A stretch of DNA of 64,000 nt from Terriglobia bacterium (lineage in GTDB: Bacteria; Acidobacteriota; Terriglobia; Terriglobales; Acidobacteriaceae): the NCBI GenBank assembly GCA_020073165.1, contig JAIQFP010000023.1, positions 1 through 64,000 on the forward strand, read 5' to 3'. The notes under the pieces were generated by a model. The model saw only the letters and a program-made list of their open reading frames with translations, was not told the DNA's origin and made no database searches. Of the stretch, positions 25,581-43,187 are shown in pieces; positions within the stretch are counted from its first letter, which is position 1, and the number at the start of each line of letters is the position of its first letter. The translations under genes and the position numbers were made by a program.

Positions 25581-26564
25581 TCAGTTCGAGGCCGCTGCCA
25601 ATAGCGCGCGTTTAGTGAAGACCCGAATCATCTCGCGGCGGTACTCGGGCGTGAGGGCGGATGTCGTGAGTGGCTTGGCGGTTTTCGCAGCCAGCTCGCC
25701 GACTGCCTCGGCCAGGACTTCGTCCATAATCTTGCCATTGAGCAGCTGTGTCACCCCTTTCACCAGCACCGGCGCGGGATTCACCGCGGTCAGCGCCAAG
25801 CGAGCATCGCTGACATGACCGTCGAACCGCTTCAAAACCACGGCGACGCCGGCCAGCGGATAGTCAATCGATCCGCGAACGCGCAGCTTGCGATAGATTC
25901 CCCGATAGTCGGCCGACGATGCCGGCAGGAACACACGAGTCAGCAGCTCGTTGGGTTCCAGCTTGCGGTAATTGTCGCCGATCCCGGTATAGAACTCGTG
26001 CAGCGGCAGGCGACGCGTGCCGGAGGGCCCTGCGATCTCAACCTCCGCATCCAGACACAACAGCGCCGGAGGAGTGTCTCCCGAGAAGGCCGCCCAGCAC
26101 TTGGTCCCACCCGGAGCAACGTGACACAGATCGCCGTCCTTCTTGATGCAGTAGCCGCAAGCCTTGCGCCAGGTGAGCGACTGGTTGTACCACAGGCAGC
26201 GTGTGTCGAGGCAGATGTTGCCGCCGATCGTGCCCATGTTGCGCAATACCGGCGAGGCCACTGTCGCCGCAGCTTCGGTGAGGACCGGATAGTGCTTCCG
26301 CAGGAAGTCGGAGCGCTCGATGCTGTTGAGCGTGGTGAGTGCACCAATCTCCACCCCAATCCCCGTTTGCGGACGGATGCCGTTCAAGCCGGCGATGCAG
26401 CGGACGTCCAGCACATATTCGGGCTCGAACAGTTTCTGGCGCATCGACGGAATAAGATCGGTTCCTCCGGCCAGAACCCGGATGTTGCTGGTATGCCTCG
26501 CCAGATGGCCGACTGCCTCTTTTATCGAGCGTGGACGCAGCAGTCTGAACTGCGGGAGACTCAA
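25581..26564 (-). CDS. hcrB: 4-hydroxybenzoyl-CoA reductase, beta (FAD, Fe-S) subunit
   Basis: 327 residues of the FAD-binding subunit of the xanthine dehydrogenase family: IRVLAGGTDLIPSMR and MGTIGGNICLDTRC hold FAD. Between about residues 118 and 165 it has an insertion with six cysteines (CLDTRC, ACGYC, LCHV, KCWA). This matches the extra [4Fe-4S] site that distinguishes 4-hydroxybenzoyl-CoA reductase from ordinary CO or xanthine dehydrogenases. The cluster routes low-potential electrons for reductive dehydroxylation. The start overlaps the hcrA stop (ATGA). It is the last gene of the block. Confidence 0.87.
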   Translation of the reverse strand: MSLPQFRLLRPRSIKEAVGHLARHTSNIRVLAGGTDLIPSMRQKLFEPEYVLDVRCIAGLNGIRPQTGIGVEIGALTTLNSIERSDFLRKHYPVLTEAAATVASPVLRNMGTIGGNICLDTRCLWYNQSLTWRKACGYCIKKDGDLCHVAPGGTKCWAAFSGDTPPALLCLDAEVEIAGPSGTRRLPLHEFYTGIGDNYRKLEPNELLTRVFLPASSADYRGIYRKLRVRGSIDYPLAGVAVVLKRFDGHVSDARLALTAVNPAPVLVKGVTQLLNGKIMDEVLAEAVGELAAKTAKPLTTSALTPEYRREMIRVFTKRALLAAASN

Positions 26565-29134
26565 TCATCACCCCCCACTGGAGCTTCGCGCCGGCAAGGA
26601 TCGAGCGCATGACGCTCCGGGCCCTTGCCACGAAACCAGAGCGATCCGCCGTGCTCGCGAAAACGCGCCGGGTCGGTGGGATCTATGCCTGCGGTGAGAT
26701 CGATTTTCTTCTGCGCTTTGTTCGCACGCAGGGCCGCCAGCACACGCTCCGGCGTGAATGGAGACTCGTGCAGGCGAATGCCCACCGCGTCGTAAATCGC
26801 ATTCGAAATCGCCGGAATCGTCGCCGCCAGCGAGCCTTCGCTGCATTCTTTGGCGCCAAAGGGGCCTTCGGGGTCGATGCTCTCCACGATGATCGGCTCG
26901 ACTTCCGGAGACTCCACCGAGGAGGGGCTGCGATACTCCAGCAACCCCGGATTCATCAGCATGCCGTCCTTCCAGACCATTTCCTCGGTGAGCGCCTGGC
27001 CCATGCCCATCCAGACCGAGCCGATGATCTGGCCTTCGACAGAAACCGGGTTCAGGGCGCGGCCGCAGTCGTGCGCCGCCCAGACTTTGTGGACGGTAAC
27101 CTCCCCGGTGTCTTCGTCCACGCTGACCTCGGCCACCTGCGCCGAATAGGAATAGGCAGGAGACGGGCCAACGCCCGCACCCTTATGCTTGCCGCCACGA
27201 GCTTCGGGCGGTGGAGCGTACGAACCGGTCCCGGTGAGCGCGCCGTGGAAGTCGATGGCAGCAACCACGGCTTCCTCGAAGGTCAATGAATCCTTGGGAC
27301 CTTCGTCTTTACGCTTTTGTTGCAGTGAGCCGCGCAGAATCTGTCCTTCGACACGACCGGAAACTGAGGCGCCTTCTTGTGTGGGGCGGACACTGGCCTC
27401 CGCGGGCGAGGCGCCCGCGGCCACATGGTTTTTGCTGACTCGATCGTCGCGAAAGGCCAAGTCTTCGGCGGCGCAGTTCATCTTCTTTGCCGCCGCCGCC
27501 GCAATCTGCTTTTTCACCTCTTCCGCAGCGCGCAGCGTGGCATTGCCGTTCATGAACGTGACGCGGCTCGAATACGAGCCGATGTCGATCGGGGTCAGAT
27601 CGGTGTCCGCGGCAACCACCTTCACTCGCCCCAGCGAACATCCCAGCACCTCGCTGGCAATCTGCGCCACCATGGTGTCCGATCCCTGGCCGATGTCGGA
27701 CGCCCCGGTGTAAACGACGACCCCGCCGTCGCGGTCGATCTTGATGTTGACCGTGGAGTGCGGCATATCGGAACGAATGATGGAGTTGGCCGCGCCGCTC
27801 ACGTAGTGGCTGCACGCCACGCCCAGCCCACGTCCCTTCGGCAGCTTGCCTTTGCGCTCCACCCAGCCCGAACGCTCCACCACCTTGGCGATGCATTCAG
27901 GCAAACCATAGCTTTGCACCCGCAGGCCGTTGATCGTCACACAGGGAGGCTTGAGCAAGTTGCGGCGGCGTATTTCCGCGGGATCGAGTTTCAGCTTCAA
28001 CGCCAGCTCATCCAGTTGCGACTCAAACGCGAATCGTACATTCACCGTGCCATGCCCACGCATGGCCCCGCAGACTGGCTTGTTAGTAAGCACGCGGTAG
28101 CCGTCGTATTGAATGTTGGGGATGTCGTAAAGCGCGCCCAGCAACGCCCCGGAGTAGAGGATCGTCACCACACCGTACGAGCAATACCCGCCACCATCCT
28201 GCACTACGCGTGCCTTCACCGCGGTGATGTGGCCGTCCTTGTCGGCGCCAGTCTTCAGATCAATGATCGTGCGCGGCCGTCCACGGTGTGCCCAGAAAAC
28301 TTCCTCGCGGGTGTAGGTAATCTTCACCGGGGCCTGGGCCTTGCGCGCGGCCACCGCCGCGATAATTTCCAGCGGAATGACCTCGCTCTTGCCGCCGAAG
28401 CCGCCACCCACCAGCGGCTTGATGACGCGAATCTGCGCCATCGGCATCTCCAGCACCAGCGACAGCTTGTGTTGCAGGTAGTACGGAACCTGGGTGGATG
28501 ACCACACGGTCAGACGCCCCGGCTTGCCGGTGTGCGGATCGATCTCGAACGCCGCCAGGGTCGAATGCGGTTCCATAGCCGCGTGCGTTACTTCGTTGGC
28601 AATGAAGCGCGCCTCGGCCACGCAAGCCGCTTCGGCCAGCGCCTTCTCGGGATCGCCAAATACGTGGTGATAATCCTTTTCGATGTTGTTCGGCTTGTTG
28701 TCGTGAATGAAATCTCTCTGCGCCTTCATCGAGTCTTCGGGATCGAAGTAGGCGGGTAGCACTTCGTATTCCACGTCAATCAGTTCGATTGCCTGGTCGG
28801 CGGTAGCTTCGTCGACCGCCGCGACGCAGGCGACGTTGTCGCCTACATAGCGGACTTTGTCGGTGCAAAGTGCATGCTCATCGTGCCCCACCGGAAGAAT
28901 GCCATACGGCGTGGGCGCGTCTTGGCCGATCACGACGGCCATCACGCCGTCGAGTTTCTCCGCACGTGTGGTATCAATGCGCTTGATGCGGGCATGGGGA
29001 TAGGGCGAGTGCAGAATCCTGCCCACGAGCATCCCCGGCAGGGAGAGATCGTCCGTGTACTTCCCCGCCCCGGTGGTCTTGCCCGCCGCGTCGACCATCG
29101 CCGTCGGTTTACCGATGATAGAGAAGTCGCTCAT
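26561..29134 (-). CDS. hcrA: 4-hydroxybenzoyl-CoA reductase, alpha (molybdopterin) subunit
   Basis: 857 residues from ATG 29134; upstream frame runs antisense to hcrC and is ignored. Molybdopterin-cytosine-dinucleotide enzyme removing the 4-OH of 4-hydroxybenzoyl-CoA. Motifs: KPLVGGGFGGKSEV, CGAMRGHGTVNVRFAFESQL, DIGQGSDTMVAQ, and PFGAKECSEGSL holding the conserved active-site Glu. It is about 80-90 residues longer than the ~770 usual for the family. Part of the excess, around residues 565-630, includes a stretch encoded by a GC-rich palindrome (27400-27420) of the kind found between genes, apparently inserted in frame. Whether this affects function is unknown. Confidence 0.88.
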   Translation of the reverse strand: MSDFSIIGKPTAMVDAAGKTTGAGKYTDDLSLPGMLVGRILHSPYPHARIKRIDTTRAEKLDGVMAVVIGQDAPTPYGILPVGHDEHALCTDKVRYVGDNVACVAAVDEATADQAIELIDVEYEVLPAYFDPEDSMKAQRDFIHDNKPNNIEKDYHHVFGDPEKALAEAACVAEARFIANEVTHAAMEPHSTLAAFEIDPHTGKPGRLTVWSSTQVPYYLQHKLSLVLEMPMAQIRVIKPLVGGGFGGKSEVIPLEIIAAVAARKAQAPVKITYTREEVFWAHRGRPRTIIDLKTGADKDGHITAVKARVVQDGGGYCSYGVVTILYSGALLGALYDIPNIQYDGYRVLTNKPVCGAMRGHGTVNVRFAFESQLDELALKLKLDPAEIRRRNLLKPPCVTINGLRVQSYGLPECIAKVVERSGWVERKGKLPKGRGLGVACSHYVSGAANSIIRSDMPHSTVNIKIDRDGGVVVYTGASDIGQGSDTMVAQIASEVLGCSLGRVKVVAADTDLTPIDIGSYSSRVTFMNGNATLRAAEEVKKQIAAAAAKKMNCAAEDLAFRDDRVSKNHVAAGASPAEASVRPTQEGASVSGRVEGQILRGSLQQKRKDEGPKDSLTFEEAVVAAIDFHGALTGTGSYAPPPEARGGKHKGAGVGPSPAYSYSAQVAEVSVDEDTGEVTVHKVWAAHDCGRALNPVSVEGQIIGSVWMGMGQALTEEMVWKDGMLMNPGLLEYRSPSSVESPEVEPIIVESIDPEGPFGAKECSEGSLAATIPAISNAIYDAVGIRLHESPFTPERVLAALRANKAQKKIDLTAGIDPTDPARFREHGGSLWFRGKGPERHALDPCRREAPVGGDD
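27400..27420. repeat. GC-rich palindrome inside hcrA, in frame
   Basis: Arms CCGCGGGCG (27400-27408) and CGCCCGCGG (27412-27420) with loop AGG, followed by ccacatgg. The intergenic copy at 44966-44994 has the same loop and tail (ccacacgg) with paired arm changes (CGGCGGGCG/CGCCCGCCG). In hcrA it encodes part of the residues AAGASPAEASVRP. Confidence 0.8.
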
Positions 29135-29147
29135 CGTTCTCTCGGTA

Positions 29148-29636
29148 CTACGTACTCGGTACTGCCTTCTGCTCGGCCTCAATCGCCGCTTTGATCGCCT
29201 GATACATCTGGCTATAGCCGGTACAGCGGCACAAGTTGCTGCTGAGAGCACTGCGAACCTCTTCTTCTGTCGGGTTCGCATTGACCGCCAGCAGGTGCTT
29301 CACCGTCATCATGAACCCCGGCGTGCAATACCCACACTGCGCGCCACCCCAGTCCCCATAAGCCTTCTGGATTGCCGCTAGGCTGCCGTGCTCACTCACC
29401 CCTTCGACGGTGGTGATCTCCTGCCCTTCGCAACTGGCCGCAAGCATGGTGCAGGACAGCATAGGAGTGCCATCCACCAGCACGGTGCAGGCGCCGCAAG
29501 ACGAGTCATCGCAGCCGCGCTTCGATCCCGTAAGCTGCAAGTCCTGCCGCAACGTATCGAGCAACAGCTTGCTGGGCTCGATGGCAAGCTCGTGGGAGCG
29601 GCCGTTGACCTTCAGTTCTATGAGTTCTTTCTTCAT
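29148..29636 (-). CDS. hcrC: 4-hydroxybenzoyl-CoA reductase, gamma (2x[2Fe-2S]) subunit
   Basis: 162 residues. The N-terminal plant-type ferredoxin site is GCDDSSCGACTVLVDG plus a later Cys (MLSCTM). The C-terminal four-helix domain has the second cluster: GGAQCGYCTPGF and NLCRCTGY. It carries electrons between the FAD subunit and the molybdenum site. Gene order C-A-B within 4 kb, with 13 bp to hcrA, makes one complete three-subunit enzyme. The family also includes CO and isoquinoline dehydrogenases, but the beta-subunit insertion decides the assignment. Confidence 0.9.
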   Translation of the reverse strand: MKKELIELKVNGRSHELAIEPSKLLLDTLRQDLQLTGSKRGCDDSSCGACTVLVDGTPMLSCTMLAASCEGQEITTVEGVSEHGSLAAIQKAYGDWGGAQCGYCTPGFMMTVKHLLAVNANPTEEEVRSALSSNLCRCTGYSQMYQAIKAAIEAEQKAVPST

Positions 29637-29654
29637 GATTAGCTGCTGGCTTCC

Positions 29655-29978
29655 TCAATACAGCGGCACCTTCGGATCCACCGTCCGCGCCCAGCCGTCA
29701 ATCCCGCCGCGTACCGATTGCACCTTCTCGAATCCCTGCTGCCGCAACCAGTTAGTGACGCTCAACGACCGCACTCCGTGATGGCACAGCACCACGATAT
29801 GCTCCTCCGGGTCGAGTTCCTGCTGCGCACGCATCGGGACATCGCCCATAGGCATCTGCTTGCTTCCCTCGATGGACGCCTTCTCCCACTCCCATGGCTC
29901 GCGCACGTCGAGCAGGGTGAATTTGTCGCCACGCTTGAGCATGGACTTGACTTGGCCGGCGCTGATTTCGAAATCCAT
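29655..29978 (-). CDS. Single-domain rhodanese
   Basis: 107 residues: LLDVREPWEWEKASIEGSKQ, then the active-site loop CHHGVRS with the catalytic Cys, then GGIDGWARTVDP. It transfers sulfane sulfur to thiol acceptors. It lies 18 bp before hcrC on the same strand, inside the aromatic-degradation block. A role in sulfurating the molybdenum cofactor or building Fe-S clusters of the reductase is a reasonable inference from position only. Confidence 0.88.
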   Translation of the reverse strand: MDFEISAGQVKSMLKRGDKFTLLDVREPWEWEKASIEGSKQMPMGDVPMRAQQELDPEEHIVVLCHHGVRSLSVTNWLRQQGFEKVQSVRGGIDGWARTVDPKVPLY

Positions 29979-29983
29979 AATTT

Positions 29984-30048
29984 AGCCGCCAGCTTTCAGC
30001 CATCAGCTCTCAGGTACGTCCTGACGACTGATGGCTGACGGCTGAATG
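29984..30048. repeat. Inverted repeat with CTGACGG-type units
   Basis: Ten-base arms CAGCCATCAG (29997-30006) and CTGATGGCTG (30028-30037) lie in the gap between the CoA-transferase A gene and the rhodanese. The right arm continues as acggctga; the same ctgatggctgacggctg string occurs at 51726-51742 before glmU. It may act as a partial terminator or be a dispersed repeat. Confidence 0.6.
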
Positions 30049-31014
30049 CTAATACCCAAAGTCCGCCTGCGCCGCGTAGGCATGCTGTTTCACGCCAAGG
30101 TTGTCCACGCGGCAACCGCCTAACTGGTTCATGTACGCCCCACGATCAGCCACGCCGTACACCCAACGCTCGAGCCAGGCGTCGCTGTCTGGTTTCGTCT
30201 TGGTCAGTTCGTGATATTGCCGAAAGAAAGCATCGTCGCGCTTGTAGTAGCCCTGTACGGGCGACGGGTGGGCGCCGTAACGGCACTCCACAACCGCGTT
30301 CACCAGGAATCCGGGAATCACCGTGCGATTGGGATCGCTGGCAATCACCTCAGGCTCGACAATCTCCTCCGCCACCACAATCACCCGCTTGGCGGCGCGC
30401 ACGCCTTCGAGCATCACCCCGAAGTTTCCCCAGCAGTGGCAGTTGCCGTCGGGGTCGGCACGCTGCACGTGGACAATCGTTACATCGGGATTGAGCGCCC
30501 GTACCGCATGCAGTTTCCCATCCTCACGTGGGGACGGACGCCCTCGTCCGTCCGGGCGAGGCGTAGCCTCGCCAACCGGGGCGGCAAACGGCGACTCCAT
30601 CTCTGCAAAGAATTTATTCTCCCGCGCCACGTCGCTGCCTAACGCTGTCCGCGTCGGCATGAACGGCACCCCCATCGCGCCAGCCTGCAACGCCAGCGCC
30701 ACGGTGAAGTTGGTCATGTTGACGACCTTCATTCCGTCCTGCTCAACGGCCCGGCGGAAGTTGTAGGCCGAGCCCATCATCACGTTGCCCACCCAGGCAG
30801 CAATGACTGTCTTGACGCATCCCGCGCCAATCAACTGGTCAAACAGAATGTCCGAAATCGGGCCAATCAACGTGAGCCCGCGCTTTCTCTGCCGGATGAT
30901 CTCGTGTCCCGCGCCGAACGGAATCATCTGCTCCAATTGCAGGCCCAGCGCGACCGAGGCGCCATCGGGCACCAGATCGGCGATCGCTTCGCGCATCGTG
31001 AGCAGCTTCGACAC
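30049..31014 (-). CDS. Class I CoA-transferase, alpha subunit (glutaconate CoA-transferase-like)
   Basis: 321 residues from GTG 31014, which overlaps the stop of the hydratase gene (TAGTG) and has GGGGAGA upstream. The fold runs from MREAIADLVPDGASVALG through GVPFMPTRTALGSDV to ALNPDVTIVHVQRADPDGNC and VVAEEIVEPEVI. Between ESPF and LHAVRALNPDV there are about 20 extra residues (GEATPRPDGRGRPSPREDG) encoded by two back-to-back hairpins, with no counterpart in the family as I know it. It pairs with the beta subunit at 31838-32626, with the hydratase gene between them. The CoA acceptor is unknown, likely a ring-cleavage dicarboxylate. Confidence 0.82.
   Translation of the reverse strand: MSKLLTMREAIADLVPDGASVALGLQLEQMIPFGAGHEIIRQRKRGLTLIGPISDILFDQLIGAGCVKTVIAAWVGNVMMGSAYNFRRAVEQDGMKVVNMTNFTVALALQAGAMGVPFMPTRTALGSDVARENKFFAEMESPFAAPVGEATPRPDGRGRPSPREDGKLHAVRALNPDVTIVHVQRADPDGNCHCWGNFGVMLEGVRAAKRVIVVAEEIVEPEVIASDPNRTVIPGFLVNAVVECRYGAHPSPVQGYYKRDDAFFRQYHELTKTKPDSDAWLERWVYGVADRGAYMNQLGGCRVDNLGVKQHAYAAQADFGY
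30532..30573. repeat. Double hairpin inside the CoA-transferase alpha gene, in frame
   Basis: First hairpin: GGACGGACG (30532-30540) and CGTCCGTCC (30545-30553), loop ccct. Second: GGCGAGGC (30555-30562) and GCCTCGCC (30566-30573), loop gta. Both are perfect. Together they encode the extra Gly/Arg/Pro-rich stretch of the protein without breaking the frame. Confidence 0.8.
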
Positions 31015-31775
31015 TATCTCCCCTTCCACACCGGCTTGCGCTTTTCCATGAACGCGCTGATTCCTTCCTGCGCGTCCTCCGTCTTCATCAACTCGTCGAG
31101 ATAAATTTGTTCGGCTCGAGCCAGGCCCTTGTCGAAGTGCATCGAGTTCCACGCATAGGTGGCCTTCTTGGTGACAGCGAGCGCTGCGGGACTGAGCTGC
31201 GACAGGTGCTGGACTGCCTCCTGCACCGCACCATCCACCTGTTCGTCCGGCAAGGCGTGGTTCGCCAGGCCGATCGCTGCGGCTTCGCTGCCGCTGATCG
31301 TGCGCCCGGTAAGCACAAGGTCCGATGCATGCTTCTGCCCTACCAGTGCCGCCAGGGCGGTCGCCGCCACCGGCGGATAACATCCCAGTTTGATCTCTGG
31401 GAAACCCCAGCCGGCAGCCTGGGAGGTGTACACCAGGTCGCATACCATGGCGAGTTCTGCGCCTCCGCCCAGGCAGTGCCCGCGCACGGCGGCGATCGTC
31501 ACTTTCTTAGTTCCCACCAGCTTCAGGATTACGCCGTGAAACTTGGACAGCATCTCCTGGATCTTGTCGGGAGTGTGCGCGGCAACATCAACCCCGGTTG
31601 AAAACGCTTTACCAGTGGCCCCGAGCACGACAATCGCAACGTCCGCCCGTTCCTCAATCTCATCGATGGCGGTCGCCAACTCGTCCATCATGGCAATGTC
31701 AATGACATTTACCGGAGCGTGTTGCAGCGTGATGCGTGCAACCGGCGGCTCCAGCACAACCGCGATGCGCGACAT
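31014..31775 (-). CDS. Crotonase-family hydratase (dienoyl-CoA hydratase-like)
   Basis: 253 residues. Crotonase oxyanion-hole regions: FSTGVDVAAHTPDKIQEMLS and AAVRGHCLGGGAELAMVCDL. The GVDVA..TPDK..EML..FH pattern is what I associate with cyclohexa-1,5-diene-carbonyl-CoA hydratases of aromatic pathways; ordinary enoyl-CoA hydratases have SAGAD. The second catalytic Glu region (GFPEIKLGCYPPVAA) has Glu-Ile-Lys. It probably hydrates a ring-derived dienoyl- or epoxide-derived CoA ester. It sits between the two CoA-transferase subunit genes and overlaps the alpha-subunit start. Confidence 0.8.
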   Translation of the reverse strand: MSRIAVVLEPPVARITLQHAPVNVIDIAMMDELATAIDEIEERADVAIVVLGATGKAFSTGVDVAAHTPDKIQEMLSKFHGVILKLVGTKKVTIAAVRGHCLGGGAELAMVCDLVYTSQAAGWGFPEIKLGCYPPVAATALAALVGQKHASDLVLTGRTISGSEAAAIGLANHALPDEQVDGAVQEAVQHLSQLSPAALAVTKKATYAWNSMHFDKGLARAEQIYLDELMKTEDAQEGISAFMEKRKPVWKGR

Positions 31776-31837
31776 TGCCGTGGGCGCCTCCGCCTTCTTC
31801 TCAGCTGCGGGTGCAATCGGCCGAACGGTACGAAATC

Positions 31838-32626
31838 CTAGGTTGTCCAGAACCCCTCCTTGTCGTATTCGCGAATCGCTTTGAGTTCTTGCGGACTCGG
31901 TTCGGGAGTCTGAGTCACGTCGTCAGCGACACGCAGCTTCCAGCCCGTATTCGCCAGCACATCGTCCAACCGGACTCCGGGATGCAGCGATGCCAAATAG
32001 GCTTCACCATCATCACCGAAGCGCAGCACCGCTTTCGTGGTGATCGCCGCGACTGGTCCTCCGCGAGGAAGCCCCTTGCGTTGCCGCCAGCCCAAGCCGT
32101 CTCCATTTCCGGGACTGGTGACATAGGAAACGCGTTCGGGTAAGCGCAGTTTGCTGTGCTCCAGCAGGACCACGAAACGCTGGGCAAGGGACGCGATGTC
32201 GCAGGCACCGCCAGATCCCGGAAGCCGTGTCAGCCCTTTTGGGCCACGAACCTCAGTGGAGTTCAGGTTTCCGAACCGATCTACCTCCGCTGCCCCCAGA
32301 AAACCCAGGTGCACCCGCCCTGATTGCAGCAAGCTCATCACTCCCAGCATGTCCAGACACTGGGTTGCGCCCAGAATGTTGGGTGGATCGGCCATGGTGT
32401 AGATCAACTCGGGTGCCGGGGTAGAGCGGATTACACCATTCTCAAACAGGCCAGTGGCGTTCGGAGCGTGCGTGCGTTTTGCCACCACGAACGCGATCAG
32501 CGGCAGCCGCATGCCGACGAACACCACCTCGCCATCGTGGATCTCGCGCGCAGCGCAGGCGACCATGAGCTCACCGCGGGTGTACGCTGCAGTCGTTGGT
32601 CGTTGGCAAAGCTTGCGCCTGAGCAT
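31838..32626 (-). CDS. Class I CoA-transferase, beta subunit
   Basis: 262 residues. LMVACAAREIHDGEVVFVGM followed by RLPLIAFVVAKRTHAPN is the beta-subunit N-terminal fold. Glu62 in LFENGVI sits where the CoA-accepting catalytic Glu of this family lies, so it should be a working transferase rather than an IpdB-type hydrolase that lost it. Further motifs: IGxxQxD-like GFLGAAEVDRFGNLNSTEV, GSGGACDIA and SYVTSPG. The alpha partner is at 30049-31014 with a hydratase gene between. The start ATG 32626 may be replaced by the ATG at 32566. Confidence 0.82.
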   Translation of the reverse strand: MLRRKLCQRPTTAAYTRGELMVACAAREIHDGEVVFVGMRLPLIAFVVAKRTHAPNATGLFENGVIRSTPAPELIYTMADPPNILGATQCLDMLGVMSLLQSGRVHLGFLGAAEVDRFGNLNSTEVRGPKGLTRLPGSGGACDIASLAQRFVVLLEHSKLRLPERVSYVTSPGNGDGLGWRQRKGLPRGGPVAAITTKAVLRFGDDGEAYLASLHPGVRLDDVLANTGWKLRVADDVTQTPEPSPQELKAIREYDKEGFWTT

Positions 32627-32691
32627 TCAATACTAAGGTCCCTCGACTCGCCCTCGCTTGCGCTCGGGCTTCACTCGGGATAACAAAGCCA

Positions 32692-33867
32692 TTACAGGTT
32701 AATCGCCGACTTCCTCGGCTCCGCAATCGTGGTCAGCGGATCCCGCCCACCCTCTTTGGGCGCAATCCACTTCTTTTCGTTGGCGATGATGTCGAGCAAC
32801 AGCTTCTTGTCATCTGCCGACGGCATGTACTCTTTCATGTGCTGCTCGTAAGCTTTGTCGTTGAGCGGTTCGCCGGTCTGCGCGTGGAACTTCTGACCCG
32901 CCCAGCGCCCGATGTTGCGGTTGAACTGGATATGGGGCGCGTACAGCCTGGGCTCTCCCGGCTTCAGCGCGCTGTTGAAGCGCTCGATCAGTCCGGCGAC
33001 CTCATCGCGGTACAGATGCCGGTTGTAGTCGTTTAATTCGTCGAGGTCGGCGGTCTGCTGGTTCTGTGGCTCGTCGTAGCGTCCCTTGATGCCCCAGACA
33101 TATGACCAGTGGGCCGACGACGAGTGGTCCGTGCCAAACAGGTCGTATGAACAGGAAATCCACTTGTTGAGATATTTCTGGATCAGCCACGCGGGAACTA
33201 CGCCGGCCTGGACAATCCGCCGCAGGCCGTCGTTGCCCGTGCCCATGTGGAAGGCCTCTTCGCGCAGCATGTAGGACATTGACCGTCCCAGCGGCGCGAA
33301 GGCCGAGTACTTCAGCATCTGCAACTGGAATTTGCCGTCACGGTCCACGAAGTCGGTGTAGGTGAAGAAGTCCATCCAGTTGTCAACATCCACATTGAAG
33401 GCGCCCAGGAGGCGCTTGTTCTCGAAGGCGCGGCGCTCCAGCATCTTTTGCGCTTCCACTTTCCCGGAGTAGCCAAACTGGTCCACCAGCAAAGCGCACA
33501 TCTGCCAACCGTGCCGCATCTCTTCGATCATGACGCGGGTCAGCGCCTTGCGGTCCCAGTCGGTGGGTGCGGTTTCAAACAGGTTGCGCTGCTGCTCCAC
33601 GCTGGCAAACTCAGTGTCTCCCTGGTAGACGATCAGGTTGATGAGCGCGTCGCGCATCTGCTGGGTGGGCACCTGGCGCAGGTTCTCCCACTTGCGCCGG
33701 CCTTTGAACGATCCGAACTGGATCTCCTCGGTTTCGATAGCGCCAAAAAGAGTGTCGAACTTGAAGTTGGCAATCTCGTCGGTGTTCACGCCGATATCCT
33801 TGCGCCAATCGTCGAACAGGCCAACCCAATCGCTGAAGGTTCCGATTTTTGCTACTTTTCCTGGCAT
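32692..33867 (-). CDS. boxB-like: BoxB-like benzoyl-CoA 2,3-epoxidase (di-iron), short form
   Basis: 391 residues. Di-iron ligand regions: LIVYQGDTEFASVEQQRNLF (Glu), MIEEMRHGWQ (ExxH), and MLREEAFHMGTG (ExxH), plus LLGAFN, FTDF/DRDGKFQLQML and APHIQFNRNIG. These strings match BoxB of the epoxy-benzoyl-CoA pathway more closely than PaaA, and the QGDTE.ASVEQQR phrase is particularly BoxB-like. BoxB is usually about 470 residues; here roughly 80 N-terminal residues are absent. The reductase BoxA is not in the window. It would add O2 to benzoyl-CoA made by HcrCAB. Confidence 0.82.
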   Translation of the reverse strand: MPGKVAKIGTFSDWVGLFDDWRKDIGVNTDEIANFKFDTLFGAIETEEIQFGSFKGRRKWENLRQVPTQQMRDALINLIVYQGDTEFASVEQQRNLFETAPTDWDRKALTRVMIEEMRHGWQMCALLVDQFGYSGKVEAQKMLERRAFENKRLLGAFNVDVDNWMDFFTYTDFVDRDGKFQLQMLKYSAFAPLGRSMSYMLREEAFHMGTGNDGLRRIVQAGVVPAWLIQKYLNKWISCSYDLFGTDHSSSAHWSYVWGIKGRYDEPQNQQTADLDELNDYNRHLYRDEVAGLIERFNSALKPGEPRLYAPHIQFNRNIGRWAGQKFHAQTGEPLNDKAYEQHMKEYMPSADDKKLLLDIIANEKKWIAPKEGGRDPLTTIAEPRKSAINL

Positions 33868-33888
33868 AAATTAGTCCTCGAAATCTTT

Positions 33889-35355
33889 TCAACCAAGGTT
33901 CATCCAAACGCTCTTCAGTTCGGTGTAATGCTCGATGGCATGCATGCCCAGCTCACGGCCGAAGCCGGAGCTCTTGAACCCGCCGAAGGGCACGGCCGCA
34001 TCCATCAGGCCATAAGTGTTGATCCAGACCAGCCCAGCGCGAAGCTGCCTCGCAACGCGGTGGGCTTTGTTGACGTCGCGCGTCCAGACCGCCGCAGCCA
34101 GGCCATAGGGGTTGGCGTTCGCCAAATCGATCACCTGGTCGACGTCGTCAAAACTCAGCGCCGCCAGCACCGGCCCGAAGATTTCCTCCTGGGCAATTTT
34201 CATGGTGTTGGATACGCCGCCAAAAATTGTGGGCTCGACGAAGAAGCCCTTGCCTCCATCGAGCGAGACGCGATTCCCGCCCGCCAGCAGTTTGGCGCCT
34301 TCCTTCTTCCCCGCCTCGATGTAACTGAGCACGCGCTCCATCTGCTCGCGGCTGGCGATCGCGCCCAACCGGGTCTTGGGATCGAGGGGATCGGCGGGCT
34401 GAAGTTTCTTAGCACGCGCGACCAGCTTTTCCAGGAACTCATCTTGAACTTTGCTCTCAACGAACAGGCGCGAGCCCGCGTTGCAGCACTCGCCCTTGCC
34501 ATAAAAGATGCCGTTGATCGCGCCCTTAACCGCGCTGTCGAGATCGGAATCGGCAAAGACGATGTTGGGTGACTTGCCGCCGAGTTCCAGGGTGACGCGC
34601 TTCACCGTGTCGGCACTGCCGCGCATGATTTCTTTGCCGACTGACGTCGATCCGGTAAAGGCAATCTTGTCGATCCCACTGTGGCGGACGAGCGCCTGCC
34701 CTACTTCCGGTCCGCCGGTCAGGATATTGATCACCCCCGCGGGCATGCCCGCTTCGATTGCCAGTTCGCCGAAGCGTAGCGCCGTCAGTGGCGTCTGCTC
34801 GGCTGGTTTCAGCACCACGGTACAGCCGCAAGCCAGCGCCGGACCCAATTTCCACGAGGCCAGCAGCAGCGGGAAATTCCAGGGAATAATCATCCCAACC
34901 ACCCCGACCGGCTCGCGCAGCGTGTAGGTGAACGCGTTCTCGAAGGTGTTTACGGTTTCGCCGTGAATCTTCGTCGCCCAGCCTGCATAGTAGCGCAGGA
35001 CATCGGCGGTCATCGGGATGTCGACGTAGCGCGATTCGAAAATCGGCTTGCCGTTGTCGAGGGTTTCGAGTTCGGCGAGTTCTTCGAGATTCTTCTCCAC
35101 GAGATCCGCAAGTTTCCAGATCAAGCGTCCCCGCTCGCTGGTGGACATCTTGCGCCAGGCACCGCCACGGTCGTCGAACACCTTGCGGGCAGCCGCGACC
35201 GCACGGTCGACGTCCGCCGCCGAAGCTTCCACAACCTGGGTAAGCACTTCGCCGGTGGCCGGGTTGATCGTGTCGAATTTCTTCGAACCTTCGACCCACT
35301 GGCCGTCTATCAGCAGGCGGCCGGGCGCGATTTTCGTCTTAGTGGCTGAAATCAT
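33889..35355 (-). CDS. NAD(P)-dependent aldehyde dehydrogenase
   Basis: 488 residues of the class 1/2 ALDH family: IIPWNFPLLLASWKLGPALA (cofactor site), FTGSTSVGKEI, LELGGKSPNIV (general-base Glu), GKGECCNAGSR (catalytic Cys), and EEIFGPVLAAL. It sits between the BoxB-like gene and a crotonase gene, so it may oxidise the semialdehyde released by ring opening, as BoxD does in the known pathway. It resembles broad aldehyde dehydrogenases more than BoxD, so the substrate stays open. Confidence 0.9.
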   Translation of the reverse strand: MISATKTKIAPGRLLIDGQWVEGSKKFDTINPATGEVLTQVVEASAADVDRAVAAARKVFDDRGGAWRKMSTSERGRLIWKLADLVEKNLEELAELETLDNGKPIFESRYVDIPMTADVLRYYAGWATKIHGETVNTFENAFTYTLREPVGVVGMIIPWNFPLLLASWKLGPALACGCTVVLKPAEQTPLTALRFGELAIEAGMPAGVINILTGGPEVGQALVRHSGIDKIAFTGSTSVGKEIMRGSADTVKRVTLELGGKSPNIVFADSDLDSAVKGAINGIFYGKGECCNAGSRLFVESKVQDEFLEKLVARAKKLQPADPLDPKTRLGAIASREQMERVLSYIEAGKKEGAKLLAGGNRVSLDGGKGFFVEPTIFGGVSNTMKIAQEEIFGPVLAALSFDDVDQVIDLANANPYGLAAAVWTRDVNKAHRVARQLRAGLVWINTYGLMDAAVPFGGFKSSGFGRELGMHAIEHYTELKSVWMNLG

Positions 35356-35388
35356 CTTCGTCCTGTAGCACCGGCATCTTGCCGGCTA

Positions 35389-35484
35389 AGCCTGCCCTGA
35401 GCGTAGTCGAAGGGGGCGGGCGTCTCGCCCGCCCTGCATGCACTGATTACCGCGAAACGCGGGCGAGGGTGCCCGCGTCACACG
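35389..35484. repeat. Intergenic cluster of GC-rich palindromes
   Basis: Three elements in the ~130-bp gap: a CCTGAGCG-type string (35394-35412, ...tgagcgtagtcgaaggg); a hairpin with arms GGGCGGGCG (35414-35422) and CGCCCGCCC (35426-35434); and a hairpin ACGCGGGC (35457-35464)/GCCCGCGT (35471-35478) followed by cacacg. The last belongs to the same family as the palindrome in hcrA and the one after lepB. The last element ends just before the hydratase stop. Confidence 0.75.
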
Positions 35485-36312
35485 TCATTTCGCCGTGAAC
35501 GTCGCCGGCCGCTTCTCCACGTACGCCGCCAAGCCTTCCTTGGCATCATCGCTCTGGAAGAGAATCTGCTGGTTCTCGCGCTCCACCGCCAGCGCCGACT
35601 CCATGGGAATCTCCCATCCTGTCTGCACCGCGCGCTTGATGCGGCCCACGGCCTTGGCCGCCTTGTTCGGCGGAGTGAACTGGCGGGCATACTCCATGAT
35701 GTTGTCCATGAAGTTCTCCCGCTGGTAGATGTCATTGATGATGCCGAACTCCAGCGCCTCTTCGAAGGAATAGGTGTTGCCCGTCACCATCAGCTCGATA
35801 GCCTTGCTTTTGCCCACCATGCGCGACAGGCGCTGGGTCCCGCCGGTGCCGGGCAGCACGCCCAGATTCACTTCCGGCAGACCGATCTTGCCCGCGTCCT
35901 TGCGAGCGATGCGGATGTCCGCCGCCATGGCGATCTCGAGTCCGCCACCCACGCAGTGACCGTTAATCGCCGCGATCACCAGCTTGGGCGTGTGCTCCAG
36001 GCGCAGCAGAGTCTCGTTGGCGTGCAGGCAGAAGTAGTACTTGAACGTCGGATCCACGCTGGCCAGCATTTTGATGTTGGCGCCGGCGGAGAAGAACTTG
36101 TCGCCCGCCCCGGTGAGCACGATGACGTGCACGTTGTTATCCATGCGCGCCTTGAGGATGGCCTCATCGAGCTGGCGGTTCATCTCGTAGGTGTAGGTGT
36201 TGGCCGGGGGATCGTTCATCTCGATCACCGCTACGCCGGCATCGGTACGATAGTTGATCAGTTGCTTGGTGCTCTCGCCGGCAACCGGCTGCACTGTAGT
36301 GGCCATGGTCAA
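35485..36312 (-). CDS. Enoyl-CoA hydratase/isomerase family protein
   Basis: 275 residues. Oxyanion-hole motifs [11 protein letters not shown] and [20 protein letters not shown], with the catalytic Glu region [20 protein letters not shown], where both Glu positions typical of true hydratases look present. An AAGGAG site lies upstream of the start (MTM; either ATG). It is directly downstream of the TetR gene (31 bp), so it heads the catabolic run. It could act on ring-opened intermediates or in beta-oxidation to acetyl-CoA and succinyl-CoA. Confidence 0.88.
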
Positions 36313-36343
36313 AACTCCTTTTCACAATAATTGGAATCTGAAT

Positions 36344-37012
36344 TCAGTTTGCTGATCTCTTCTTCTGCGCCTTCCCCGAGGCGCAGACCCCCTGCAAGAA
36401 AATGTTGCCCATCTGCTCAGCCATTTCGCCGGCATCGGCATCCACACGGGGATGATGCCAGGTATAAATCCAGTTCATCATGCCGAACAAGCTGAGCACC
36501 GCGATGCGACTGGAGAATTCTAGTCCTTTTGCCCGCTTCAGGTTGTCGAGCAGCTCGATGCAGATGCGGTAGTACTCGCGCTTGATGGCCGCAATCTCAG
36601 TCCCGAAGCCGTTCTTCAAAACGTCATCCTCGTGCGACAGCACCTTCATGGCTTTCTGGTTGGCGAGAAAGTACTCCAGGTGATTGAGGATGAATACGCG
36701 AATGCGCTGCTCGGGGTCGGTCACGTCCTTGAGTCGCTCGCGCAGGCGTTCCACGATGGTGGTGAAGGTGTGTTTCTGGATCAGGTAAAGCAGTTTTTCC
36801 TTGGACTCGAAGTAGTAGTACATCCCAGCCAAAGACATGCCGCTGGCCCGCGACAAGTCGCGCATGGAGGCGCCCTCGTAGCCCTTTTCGTAAAAGACAT
36901 CGGTCGCGTAGGTGAGGATCTTGGCCAAGCGGCGGTCGAAACGGGTCTCCGACGGCAGCGCGGCGCGGCGGCGACGCGAGACCCGGGGCGGAGCTGGAGA
37001 GGCGGAGGCCAT
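36344..37012 (-). CDS. TetR-family regulator
   Basis: 222 residues. The N-terminal HTH is AKILTYATDVFYEKGYEGAS then MRDLSRASGMSLAGMYYYFE, with SKEKLLYLI after it. The C-terminal ligand domain is about 140 residues. Basic N-terminal tail rich in Arg and Pro. It is first in the run of genes for aromatic-CoA degradation and has a perfect CGAACGTTCG palindrome between its promoter and start codon, so it probably represses itself and the genes downstream until an acyl-CoA ligand binds. The ligand is a guess from context. Confidence 0.9.
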   Translation of the reverse strand: MASASPAPPRVSRRRRAALPSETRFDRRLAKILTYATDVFYEKGYEGASMRDLSRASGMSLAGMYYYFESKEKLLYLIQKHTFTTIVERLRERLKDVTDPEQRIRVFILNHLEYFLANQKAMKVLSHEDDVLKNGFGTEIAAIKREYYRICIELLDNLKRAKGLEFSSRIAVLSLFGMMNWIYTWHHPRVDADAGEMAEQMGNIFLQGVCASGKAQKKRSAN

Positions 37013-37062
37013 TTTTGTCGAACGTTCGTTCTAATAATAGCGCAAAGGACAGGGTATCACAA
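37013..37062 (-). promoter_or_regulatory. Promoter and operator of the tetR/catabolic run
   Basis: Minus strand: -35 TTGTGA (37062-37057), a 17-nt spacer, -10 TATTAT (37039-37034), and then the 10-bp palindrome CGAACGTTCG (37028-37019), extended as gaacgaacgttcg, between the -10 and the ATG at 37012. A TetR dimer bound here would block transcription start. Confidence 0.65.
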
Positions 37063-37893: not shown

Positions 37894-38949
37894 TTAGTTC
37901 CGGACATCGGACAGTAAGCGCTCCACTTCGGCCTTCAGATCGGCGGTCAAGGGCAGCAGCGGCAGCCGAACCGTACCTCCGAAGTAGCCGTTGTAGTCCA
38001 TGGCGTACTTCACACCGGGAATGCCAAGGTCTCCCACCACGCGCTGAGCGGCCCTGGCGATGCGTTCCTGCTTGAGGCGGGCAAGATCAGCATCGCCTTC
38101 CTTCCACGCGGCATAAACTTCGTAGCAGGCAGTGGGTGCGCAATCGGCAAACGCCAAGATGGCCCCGACGGCGCCCACTTGCAGCGACGGTTCCAGCTTC
38201 TGCGCCGCTCCTACCATGACCTGAAAGCCGACCTCCTTCTGGCGGGTCTTCAGGCCGCCGACCACACTCACCGAAGACGACGATGGCTGGGGCTTGCTTC
38301 CGCCAATCGTCACCAGTTCCCCGCCCCCGTTGCTTTCGGCAGCTTTCAGCATGCGCGGAGTCACCGCCTCAAACGTCTCCGTGACGCTTGCGCTGCGCTT
38401 CACATGCCGCGTGCCTTCCACCATCTTGCAGACTTTCTCCACATCGCCGCTCGATTCCTTGATGCCGATCAGGTTGGGATGCTCCGCCAGTTCGATCACG
38501 ATCTCCGCCGGAATGTCATAACCCGTGGCCTGGGGAAAGTTGTAGATGATGACCGGCAGCGGCGAGCGGTCCGCAACAAAGCGATAAAACGCCAGCATGT
38601 TGGCTGGCTGCATCTGCTTCTTGTAATAGTGCGGCGTGCGCACCATGGCCACGTCATAGCCGGCTTTGGCAGCAAACTCGGTGAGCTGCAGGGTGCCGTC
38701 GGCAGACTCCACTCCGGTCCCGGCAATCAGCACCTTATGCGGCGCAGCCGCCTCACGTGCCGACTGCAAAACGTCGCGCCGCTCCAAGTCGGACAGCAGA
38801 ATGGCCTCCCCGGTCGAGCCAAGCACCACAATGCCCGCTACTGGAGTCTTCGAGTAGCGCTCTACGTTGGCTTCGAGCTTCTTGAAGTAAACGTTTCCCT
38901 CGGGATAGAAAGGCGTGGTGATGGGAGAAAAAATGCCGTGGAGAAGCAT
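37894..38949 (-). CDS. DapA/NanA-family aldolase with a ~60-residue insertion
   Basis: 351 residues from ATG 38949. The TIM-barrel aldolase family is clear: GSTGEAILLS, YNFPQATGYDIP (catalytic Tyr), and GIKESSGDVEKV (Schiff-base Lys). Normal members are about 295 residues. The excess is one block of about 60 residues after KMVEGT (RHVKRSASVTETFEAVTPRM...KPQPSSSSVSVVGGL) that precedes the VLVGxA strand (QVMVGAAQ). The insert is Ser/Gly-rich and basic. The substrate (dihydrodipicolinate, KDG or hydroxy-oxoglutarate) cannot be told. Not linked to other lysine genes. Confidence 0.85.
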   Translation of the reverse strand: MLLHGIFSPITTPFYPEGNVYFKKLEANVERYSKTPVAGIVVLGSTGEAILLSDLERRDVLQSAREAAAPHKVLIAGTGVESADGTLQLTEFAAKAGYDVAMVRTPHYYKKQMQPANMLAFYRFVADRSPLPVIIYNFPQATGYDIPAEIVIELAEHPNLIGIKESSGDVEKVCKMVEGTRHVKRSASVTETFEAVTPRMLKAAESNGGGELVTIGGSKPQPSSSSVSVVGGLKTRQKEVGFQVMVGAAQKLEPSLQVGAVGAILAFADCAPTACYEVYAAWKEGDADLARLKQERIARAAQRVVGDLGIPGVKYAMDYNGYFGGTVRLPLLPLTADLKAEVERLLSDVRN

Positions 38950-39005
38950 GGGAGCAGCCCTCAGCCTACTTAGATAGCTTACCAGTTCGTGTGCTACCAA
39001 TAAAT

Positions 39006-42572: not shown

Positions 42573-43187
42573 TTATGCAGTCTTGTTGGTCTTGTCCGCT
42601 GGCATGAGCCTAGCTACGCCGTTGCCAGCTTTGTTGTGAGACGGAACGTCGTCGCTTGGTGCGGTAGTCTTGCTTTGAAAGGGCGCGCCTTCAGGTGCGC
42701 CGACCGCCGCCCCTAAGGCGATGGGCTTTAGCCCCTGGGGTACGCCGTCTAATTCGAAACCGGCGTGTGCGGAAGAGTACGAATAGTCCTCCGGCTGTTC
42801 ACACAGATTCCTCTTTACCGGATTCTGGCGCATGTAAATCACGTGCAGCCTGTGGTCGCTAGCGTCGCGAATACGATGGTCCGAAAAACCCTTCTGCCAG
42901 ACATCCATGTTCGAACCCAGTTCCTTCTTCGCTCGATACGAGAATCCACCCTTGATGAATTGAACTGCTTTCTCGAGGCTGGTGAGTGGAGTGAGCAAGA
43001 CGTGAATATGATCCGGCATGATTACGAACTCGTGGAGGAGGTACGCCGAGCCGCGATAGTGATAGAGCGTGTTGATCATCAATTTGGACCACGGCTCGGC
43101 TTGAAAAAGCGTCCGCCGCCCCCAGGTGCTGGTGGTGACCATGTAGGTCTGTCCCGTGTTGGTGGCATGCTCCCTCGTGGGTCTCAA
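42573..43187 (-). CDS. REP-associated tyrosine transposase (RAYT)
   Basis: 204 residues, Y1/IS200-like HUH family: YMVTTSTWGRRTLFQ, the HUH motif MPDHIHVLLTP, FIKGGFSYRAKKELG, VWQKGFSDHRIRD, then VIYMRQNPVKRNLCEQPEDY. The start codon is TTG 43187, with uncertain exact start. It is flanked by inverted ~66-bp REP-like repeats (42674-42740 and 43195-43260), the left one lying inside its own C-terminal coding region. RAYTs are single-copy housekeeping-like proteins that act on REP sequences, not classical insertion sequences. The ORF is intact. Its position splits carA from carB. Confidence 0.88.
   Translation of the reverse strand: MRPTREHATNTGQTYMVTTSTWGRRTLFQAEPWSKLMINTLYHYRGSAYLLHEFVIMPDHIHVLLTPLTSLEKAVQFIKGGFSYRAKKELGSNMDVWQKGFSDHRIRDASDHRLHVIYMRQNPVKRNLCEQPEDYSYSSAHAGFELDGVPQGLKPIALGAAVGAPEGAPFQSKTTAPSDDVPSHNKAGNGVARLMPADKTNKTA
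42674..42740. repeat. Left REP flank of the RAYT
   Basis: Begins TTTGAAAGGGCGCGCCTTC and ends GGGCTTTAGCCCC, containing a GGGCTTTAGCCC hairpin. It is the inverted copy of 43195-43260, with the two outer blocks nearly identical and the middle diverged. It is translated as the last ~50 residues of the RAYT. Confidence 0.85.

Follow-up and report, generated by a model that had tools for sequence, protein, structure and literature searches.

How can an enzyme that is usually taken to signal the anaerobic breakdown of aromatic compounds come to be encoded beside a relative of an O2-dependent epoxidase? This question is raised by positions 25581-37012 of a 64,000-nucleotide stretch from a Terriglobia bacterium (hereafter the window), which is part of contig C21 (JAIQFP010000023.1) of a draft genome of 4.6 million bases in 35 contigs. 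There, the minus strand carries genes for HcrCAB, a predicted 4-hydroxybenzoyl-coenzyme A (CoA) reductase (Hcr), together with a gene for a short form of the benzoyl-CoA epoxidase BoxB. Comparative sequence analysis makes it rather probable that the run is an inducible aryl-CoA operon, in which Hcr would make benzoyl-CoA for epoxidation with O2 by the short BoxB or for ring reduction without O2. Gene content, conservation, co-occurrence, pocket residues and a shared site are the support observed here. A sequence-only reading of the window had proposed the route from 4-hydroxybenzoyl-CoA through benzoyl-CoA to an epoxide, as a bridge between anoxic and micro-oxic life. This idea agrees with most of the tests, among them a palindrome in common with an operon for benzoyl-CoA reductase (BCR); as originally put it holds in part, given a non-canonical epoxidase and the lack of boxC and boxA matches above cut-off.

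The gene run and its two predicted aryl-CoA enzymes

Every gene that the sequence-only reading had listed was found on the minus strand within 25581-37012. From 37012 to 25581 the order is TetR, crotonase-2 (Cro2), aldehyde dehydrogenase (ALDH), BoxB-like, GctB, crotonase-1 (Cro1), GctA, rhodanese, HcrC, HcrA and HcrB. The CoA-transferase of that list is present, but as two separate genes (GctA and GctB) rather than one, and the rhodanese at 29655-29978, between GctA and HcrC, had been left out. The features are as follows.

37018..37033, minus strand: palindromic operator candidate TAGAACGAACGTTCGA, 5 bases ahead of the TetR start codon
36344..37012, minus strand: TetR-family regulator, the operon's first gene (PF00440, PF17932)
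35485..36312, minus strand: Cro2, constant partner of the short BoxB (PF00378)
33889..35355, minus strand: ALDH, proposed semialdehyde dehydrogenase with a BoxD-like role (PF00171)
32692..33867, minus strand: short BoxB-like di-iron aryl-CoA epoxidase (predicted), 391 amino acids (TIGR03225, 229.9 bits; best solved relative 3per)
31838..32626, minus strand: GctB-like CoA-transferase beta subunit (best solved relative 1poi_B, glutaconate CoA-transferase)
31014..31775, minus strand: Cro1, relative of the cyclohexadienoyl-CoA hydratase Dch (TIGR03189, 163.6 bits)
30049..31014, minus strand: GctA-like CoA-transferase alpha subunit (best solved relative 1poi_A; PF01144; putative start at the GTG at 31014, stretch analysed 30049-30972)
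29655..29978, minus strand: single-domain rhodanese (PF00581, 65 bits)
29148..29636, minus strand: HcrC-like [2Fe-2S] subunit (TIGR03193, 178 bits, cut-off 257.8)
26561..29134, minus strand: HcrA, molybdopterin subunit of 4-hydroxybenzoyl-CoA reductase (TIGR03194, 1040 bits; 1rm6_A, E 8e-244)
25581..26564, minus strand: HcrB, flavin adenine dinucleotide subunit with the [4Fe-4S] Cys insertion (TIGR03195, 328 bits, cut-off 404.6)

In the proposed mechanism, 4-hydroxybenzoate would be converted to its CoA thioester, perhaps by an enzyme of the benzoate-CoA ligase family encoded on contig C23 or by GctAB. HcrCAB, as expected of its family, would remove the para-hydroxyl group reductively, probably with a low-potential ferredoxin as donor, and yield benzoyl-CoA. 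With O2 present, the short BoxB would epoxidise benzoyl-CoA, Cro2 and Cro1 together may replace the two-domain BoxC, and ALDH would oxidise the ring-opened semialdehyde. With O2 absent, benzoyl-CoA would pass to a class-I-like BCR operon in those Hcr genomes that also have Oah, the source genome included. One TetR, probably released by an aryl-CoA, would open both operons, and the O2 supply would pick the route.

HcrA scored above the curated cut-off of TIGR03194 (1040 vs 994.6 bits), and the 4-hydroxybenzoyl-CoA reductase 1rm6 was the best solved relative of both HcrA and HcrB. HcrB (328 vs 404.6 bits) and HcrC (178 vs 257.8 bits) matched the Hcr models under their cut-offs, and HcrC scored slightly higher with the glyceraldehyde dehydrogenase gamma model (187 vs 178 bits). 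These values would suit a different molybdenum hydroxylase, one that oxidises some aryl-CoA or aldehyde and makes no benzoyl-CoA. We give that explanation almost no weight, as it would have to account for an HcrA above cut-off and for 1rm6 as by far its best solved relative (815 bits, the next 268), for hcr genes that come after a BCR gene run in another genome (stretch L228), and for the tendency of PobA to replace Hcr that is described below. The Cys-rich [4Fe-4S] insertion of the beta subunit, on which the sequence-only reading had relied, is also kept: its five Cys match 1rm6_B in the alignment, and it was present in 33 of 34 aligned sequences, the window's included, the exception (L240) being without the first Cys. 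As regards these Cys residues of HcrB, the hcr genes do not lack key residues. The predicted reductase thus resembles 1rm6 in its three subunits, its HcrA score and its Cys insertion.

Compared with 1rm6, HcrA has an extra linker that varies among relatives. In-frame Pro/Arg/Ser-rich stretches occur in HcrA (27350-27436) and GctA (30502-30594); their length and sequence vary among relatives, while the enzymes are otherwise conserved. In-frame repeat insertions were rejected as an explanation, the stretches being variable loops, and no mobile element is claimed since the HcrA stretch has just one similarity of 24-31 bases elsewhere within the window.

The BoxB-like protein is not a canonical BoxB. 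With the model TIGR03225 it reached 229.9 bits against a cut-off of 499.1, whereas the canonical BoxB of L064, from the same family of genomes, scored 757 bits; it has 391 amino acids, canonical proteins of the phylum mostly 468-483. The six di-iron ligands E120, E150, H153, D211, E240 and H243 were nevertheless kept in all 47 aligned short sequences, the window's included (ligands and pocket residues numbered after the available text of PMC5489048). Among the seven pocket residues of BoxB, the window protein keeps Q116, T119, S123, F193 and F203, while F206 is changed to Tyr and T210 to Val. Across the 47 short sequences Gln116, Thr119, Ser123 and Phe193 were invariant and Phe203 was found in all except two; Phe206 was Tyr in 44 and Phe in 3, and Thr210 was Val or Ile. 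Gln116 is described as touching benzoyl-CoA in the BoxB crystal (PMC5489048). PaaA is unlike BoxB at Gln116, Thr119, Ser123 and Phe203.

The predicted structure (mean pLDDT 80) was nearest to the BoxB crystals, with a TM value of 0.80-0.82 of the query and the next entry at 0.46; the top fold match, 3pm5, contains bound benzoyl-CoA. In a tree of 57 rows, with near copies left out, canonical BoxB (17 rows, including the named boxB of Mycetohabitans), a third BoxB-like type (4 rows) and PaaA (3 rows) were each split off with support of at least 100/99. The 13 rows of the family's own short BoxB formed a clade (100/100). With PaaA as outgroup, the 33 short rows together did not, as canonical BoxB arose among them and joined 9 short rows (99/96), a join that is unsure given the long branches flagged by the tree program here as in the crotonase tree. 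Tree, pocket residues and fold therefore place the protein with BoxB and not with unrelated di-iron enzymes, which upholds the original assignment in part, since it lies outside the canonical clade. A PaaA relative was ruled out by the same three lines of evidence, and an ordinary box pathway by the BoxB score together with the boxC and boxA searches reported below.

The third BoxB-like family (L287:9063-10298, L288, L289 and L290) has 411-455 amino acids, is ~30% identical to the short BoxB, keeps Gln116 and has Asn for Phe203. In L287 its gene lies near homologues of Cro2 (72%), GctB (61%) and part of GctA (80%), and the protein had no NCBIfam match at 1e-30. In L249, L250, L253 and L257 the short-BoxB match from the genome search contains a single TGA, perhaps a true stop near the C-terminus.

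Conservation and co-occurrence in Terriglobales

Conservation of the run was assessed in 25 chosen short-BoxB regions of the family (tblastn, at least 38% identity; some regions end at contig ends). Cro2 was found in all 25, TetR and Cro1 in 24 each, ALDH and Hcr in 18 each, and Gct and rhodanese in 16 each. The earlier description of the genes as one run therefore holds beyond chance for TetR, Cro2, Cro1 and the Hcr genes. An amidohydrolase, which is not part of the window's run, was present in 13 regions, and three of the seven regions without Hcr belong to genomes with HcrB elsewhere (G041, G080, G188). Named relatives were also inspected, as the best 80 of 291 loci, all titled Acidobacteriota or groups within (Terriglobia, Acidobacteriaceae, Ca. 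Sulfotelmatobacter) and 31 of them with full flanks. They contained Cro2 (75), Cro1 (70), TetR (64), rhodanese (55), Hcr (53), amidohydrolase (51), ALDH (38) and Gct (22). From both sets of counts, TetR, Cro2, short BoxB and Cro1 form the core, to which Hcr is a frequent addition. The rhodanese between GctA and HcrC is perhaps a sulfur source for the molybdenum cofactor of Hcr.

Co-occurrence was counted in one draw of 298 draft genomes of the order. The BoxB search matched 103 genomes, five of them weakly and assigned to neither type (G001, G011, G023, G025, G237); short BoxB was present in 86, canonical BoxB in 12, and both in none. HcrB (threshold E 1e-60) was found in 83 genomes, and 79 of these also have a BoxB type. 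In the remaining four (G100, G144, G192, G259) Hcr lies at the very start of its contig (L192, L193, L194, L198), where the upstream genes would sit. Fisher tests on co-occurrence gave very small values, with kinship ignored in all counts.

Ten of the 12 canonical-BoxB genomes have Hcr. The Hcr regions of nine were fetched: eight (L180-L185, L187, L188) keep the cluster without short BoxB and without ALDH, their canonical BoxB being on a different contig, and the ninth is a lone HcrB (L186:9426, G145), for which the fetched region gave no HcrA or HcrC match. The seven canonical loci fetched all have BoxC and BoxB homologues and three have a BoxD-like ALDH; in L064 the BoxB, BoxC and BoxD models all matched above cut-off. 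This natural swap, in which the short BoxB is gone where canonical BoxB is present and the cluster is kept, suggests by its pattern that the two types do the same job.

PobA, the aerobic 4-hydroxybenzoate hydroxylase, showed a second kind of replacement. Its model matched 29 of the 298 genomes at 1e-60; four of them (G034, G060, G106, G176; E 1e-84 to 1e-91), none with Hcr or BoxB, were not counted, and 18 of the 25 counted were above the model cut-off. Among the 98 BoxB genomes, PobA was present in 2 of 79 with Hcr vs 10 of 19 without (p 3.6e-7; the ten across five genera, kinship ignored); nine of these ten were above cut-off and G251 had a partial match. The avoidance was weaker over all 298 genomes (p 0.019). 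This pattern supports 4-hydroxybenzoate as the compound served by Hcr.

The distribution also bears on what the short BoxB acts on. It could epoxidise another aryl-CoA, for example a hydroxylated or heteroaromatic one, with Hcr just happening to lie in the same assortment of aryl-CoA genes. This would accommodate the two pocket residues unlike BoxB, the lack of Hcr in 17 of the order's 86 short-BoxB genomes, and the 16 regions fetched outside the order, which have short BoxB without hcr, six of them beside a Cro2 homologue (56-58% identical) and two with NuoE/NuoF-like genes. We consider it quite improbable, as canonical BoxB replaces the short form in an otherwise same gene set, which points to benzoyl-CoA, as does the site in common with the BCR operon; Gln116, also present in the third type, is moreover invariant in the 47 short sequences.

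The two NuoE/NuoF-like cases may bear on electron supply. In L277:10320-12010, behind the short boxB, genes follow for a [2Fe-2S] thioredoxin-like ferredoxin (NuoE-like), a NuoF-like protein (Pfam) and another crotonase; the same NuoE-like/NuoF-like order was read by eye behind the short boxB in L285:6462-8355. This pair is a plausible candidate for the electron supply of the short BoxB in place of BoxA.

A probable reductive outlet and a shared palindrome

PF06050 matched two adjacent genes on contig C14, and the surrounding stretch (L204:10830-17904) encodes BcrC-, BcrB-, BcrA- and BcrD-like proteins, Had, Oah, SDR, a TPR protein and a LeuA-like protein. Oah (542 vs 464 bits) and Had (448 vs 339 bits) were above their cut-offs, and for the two ATPase-like subunits the best match was a general activase model. 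No Dch-like gene was seen in this operon. A class II BCR was rejected, as the genome gave no PF01314 match. In the order, Oah (1e-40) was found in 22 of the 298 genomes, 21 of which have Hcr, the source genome among them. The other 62 of the 83 Hcr genomes show no Oah, some absences perhaps being gaps in drafts, and 58 of the 62 have a BoxB type; there the epoxidase is the visible outlet for benzoyl-CoA. The order thus differs from what is familiar for HcrCAB, in that most Hcr genomes show no reductive ring pathway (Oah) and 79 of 83 have a BoxB type.

The two outlets appear to be linked by a palindrome. Upstream of TetR, the 8-mer AACGTTCG was found in 31 of 33 loci as part of the palindrome TCGAACGAACGTTCGA. 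The 16-mer TAGAACGAACGTTCGA ahead of the window's TetR is repeated exactly, in the same genome, at the 5' end of the BCR operon (L204, 10840-10855). There it runs into the opening codons of the BcrC reading frame taken at its longest; the true BcrC start may be downstream. With at most 2 mismatches, the palindrome was present in 27 of the 30 short-BoxB loci that had supplied the consensus and, as an independent test, in 12 of 16 BCR loci, at the run's first gene match or ~100 bases before it. It was found in none of seven canonical box loci and, elsewhere in this genome, in one of 15 stretches. Markov shuffles (five per set) gave 0-2 sites for the short-BoxB set and 0-1, 0-1 and 0-1 for the others. 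The single further site in this genome is where a second TetR gene begins, on contig C26; this gene is 65% identical to the window's TetR. Since the palindrome is common to short-BoxB and BCR operons, the simplest reading of these sequences is that one regulon joins both benzoyl-CoA outlets, with one TetR opening both.

The second TetR gene is followed (L303:2920-9140) by an Amidohydro_2 gene like that behind hcrB in relatives, and the same run has a DUF5938/saccharopine-dehydrogenase-like gene, an acyl-CoA ligase and a thiolase. Also on C26, two AMP-ligases in L304 and L312 have acetone-carboxylase-gamma-like and hydantoinase-A-like genes nearby, which may encode a carboxylase for acetone or an aromatic ketone.

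A regulator of comparable description is MbdR of Azoarcus sp. CIB, presumably also of the TetR family. MbdR is reported to respond to an aryl-CoA effector, 3-methylbenzoyl-CoA, as proposed here for the TetR of an aryl-CoA pathway; unlike the proposal, it controls an anaerobic pathway (PMC4424350, available text).

The shared palindrome would also fit an anaerobic benzoyl-CoA degrader in which the short BoxB mainly scavenges O2 and protects Hcr and BCR in traces of it. In line with this, the peat genome SbA1 (L105) has TetR, Cro2, short BoxB and HcrCAB, and in the paper on SbA1-7 it figures among facultative anaerobes of the Acidobacteria; no word beginning 'benzo' occurs in the main text of that paper, as available (PMC6018796). 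We regard such a protective role as rather unlikely, as the Hcr genomes without Oah, 58 of 62 with a BoxB type, mostly have no visible BCR to protect (being drafts), and as ALDH (18/25) and the crotonases (24 and 25/25) beside the short BoxB are more than a scavenger needs.

Ring opening, related pathways and further observations

The sequence-only reading had advised looking for boxA and boxC elsewhere in the genome, and the model searches found neither above cut-off. The best boxC match was Cro2 with 88.7 bits (cut-off 712), and the best boxA match, which covered part of the model, reached 62 bits (cut-off 459). Ring opening must therefore use other enzymes. Cro2 aligns with part of the N half of BoxC at 33% identity and with part of the C half at 27-32%, so that BoxC looks like a protein of two crotonase domains, whose place Cro2 and a second crotonase could take. 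That Cro2 and Cro1 jointly play this role has, in our view, about an even chance. Since Cro1 (8/8) and Cro2 (5/8) persist in the linked clusters of canonical-BoxB genomes, one or both may instead serve later beta-oxidation.

Cro1 is the genome's best match to the Dch model TIGR03189 (163.6 bits, under the cut-off of 292.5) and forms a sister group of Dch-like genes within BCR operons (joint group 99/98). It could thus be the missing Dch of the genome's own BCR operon, but it is not simply Dch, as in G181 the BCR operon (L232) has a Dch-like gene of its own, distinct from Cro1 (L039).

For GctAB, a ring-opening hydrolase like that of chains 6co6 and 6con, which we take to be IpdAB, would explain ring opening. 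It is not favoured, because 1poi fits far better and a Glu is kept: the Glu of the GctB motif FENG aligns with that of VESG in 1poi_B, presumably the catalytic Glu of the glutaconate CoA-transferase beta subunit, and was found in 22 of 22 aligned sequences, the window's included. The ligase-family enzyme on C23 has the motif FAYGLGN, which is given as a motif of benzoate-CoA ligases (PMC10803450, available text). In the ligase stretches L300, L302 and L304 one palindrome match with 3 mismatches each was seen, two of them at a ligase gene start; these were left out of the counts.

Beside the scores of HcrB, HcrC and the short BoxB, its two changed pocket residues, the boxC and boxA results, the alternative role of the crotonases and the disregard of kinship, several further findings weigh against the proposal. 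Gct was absent in 9 and ALDH in 7 of the 25 family regions. Hcr is missing from 19 of the 98 BoxB genomes, nine of which are without PobA too, and from all 16 short-BoxB regions fetched outside the order. In the source genome's BCR operon, BcrC (332 bits, cut-off 421), BcrB (331, 487), BcrA (195, 578) and BcrD (200, 313) were all under cut-off. Four BCR loci had no palindrome, namely L228, whose contig begins within the run, L231, L240 and L242, and none was found within 3 mismatches at the C23 ligase. Finally, neither BoxB type occurs in the genome of L240, a stretch that encodes Had, Oah and a Dch-like protein together with Hcr.

The run shares with the Box pathway (BoxA, BoxB, BoxC, BoxD) the di-iron epoxidase fold, the six iron ligands, most pocket residues, and crotonase-type enzymes and often ALDH in the operon. 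It differs in its shorter epoxidase outside the canonical clade, in a genome without BoxC or BoxA above cut-off, in having hcr within the same operon, and in its TetR, where canonical loci have a helix-turn-helix/shikimate-kinase regulator. The Paa pathway (phenylacetyl-CoA epoxidase) follows the same logic of epoxidase, crotonases and ALDH, and its PaaA and PaaG models were among the weaker matches of the window proteins; the four pocket differences of PaaA set it apart. The class I BCR pathway (Bcr, Dch, Had, Oah) is matched by this genome's BcrC-, BcrB-, BcrA- and BcrD-like proteins with Had and Oah, and by the grouping of Cro1 with the Dch-like genes of such operons; unlike it, the operon has BcrA-D under cut-off, no Dch-like gene seen and a palindrome in common with an oxygenase operon.

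Other bacteria are known to combine aerobic with anaerobic benzoyl-CoA genes in a single genome (PMC10803450, PMC5852087), and SAR324 bins are reported to contain both Hcr and BoxB, apart from each other (PMC4782131; all three as available in part). Among the matches listed, judged by titles and abstract starts and with few subscription journals, nothing joined Hcr, a BoxB type and Acidobacteria; within the same scope no printed account was found of an operon that includes Hcr, of the short form of the epoxidase, of the PobA exchange or of the shared operator.

In the sampled order, Hcr accompanies an oxygenase-type protein in 79 of 83 genomes and, among BoxB genomes, seems to swap with the aerobic PobA. 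We tentatively propose, with slightly less than even confidence, a widespread plant-phenolics strategy of Terriglobales, comprising Hcr dehydroxylation, O2 attack by the short BoxB, two crotonases for BoxC and one aryl-CoA-sensing TetR that would open both branches where BCR is present, with O2 selecting the route. If true, hcr and box genes in soil and peat metagenomes would have to be read differently, a second epoxidase form would exist for benzoyl-CoA chemistry, and oxic and anoxic routes would have one operator in common within a regulon. Many soil Acidobacteria carry the operon, some of them with its palindrome also at a ring-reducing pathway, and may then degrade plant phenolics with or without O2.

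Three features of the window lie outside the run. Its first 2000 positions (1-2000), at the very start of contig C21, have a G+C content of 41.5% vs ~57-63% elsewhere, with no clear gene seen. A DapA-like protein (37894-39000) has an unusual in-frame Ser-rich stretch at 38254-38415. At 42573-43187, between carB and carA, a REP-associated (Y1) transposase-like gene was identified by eye.

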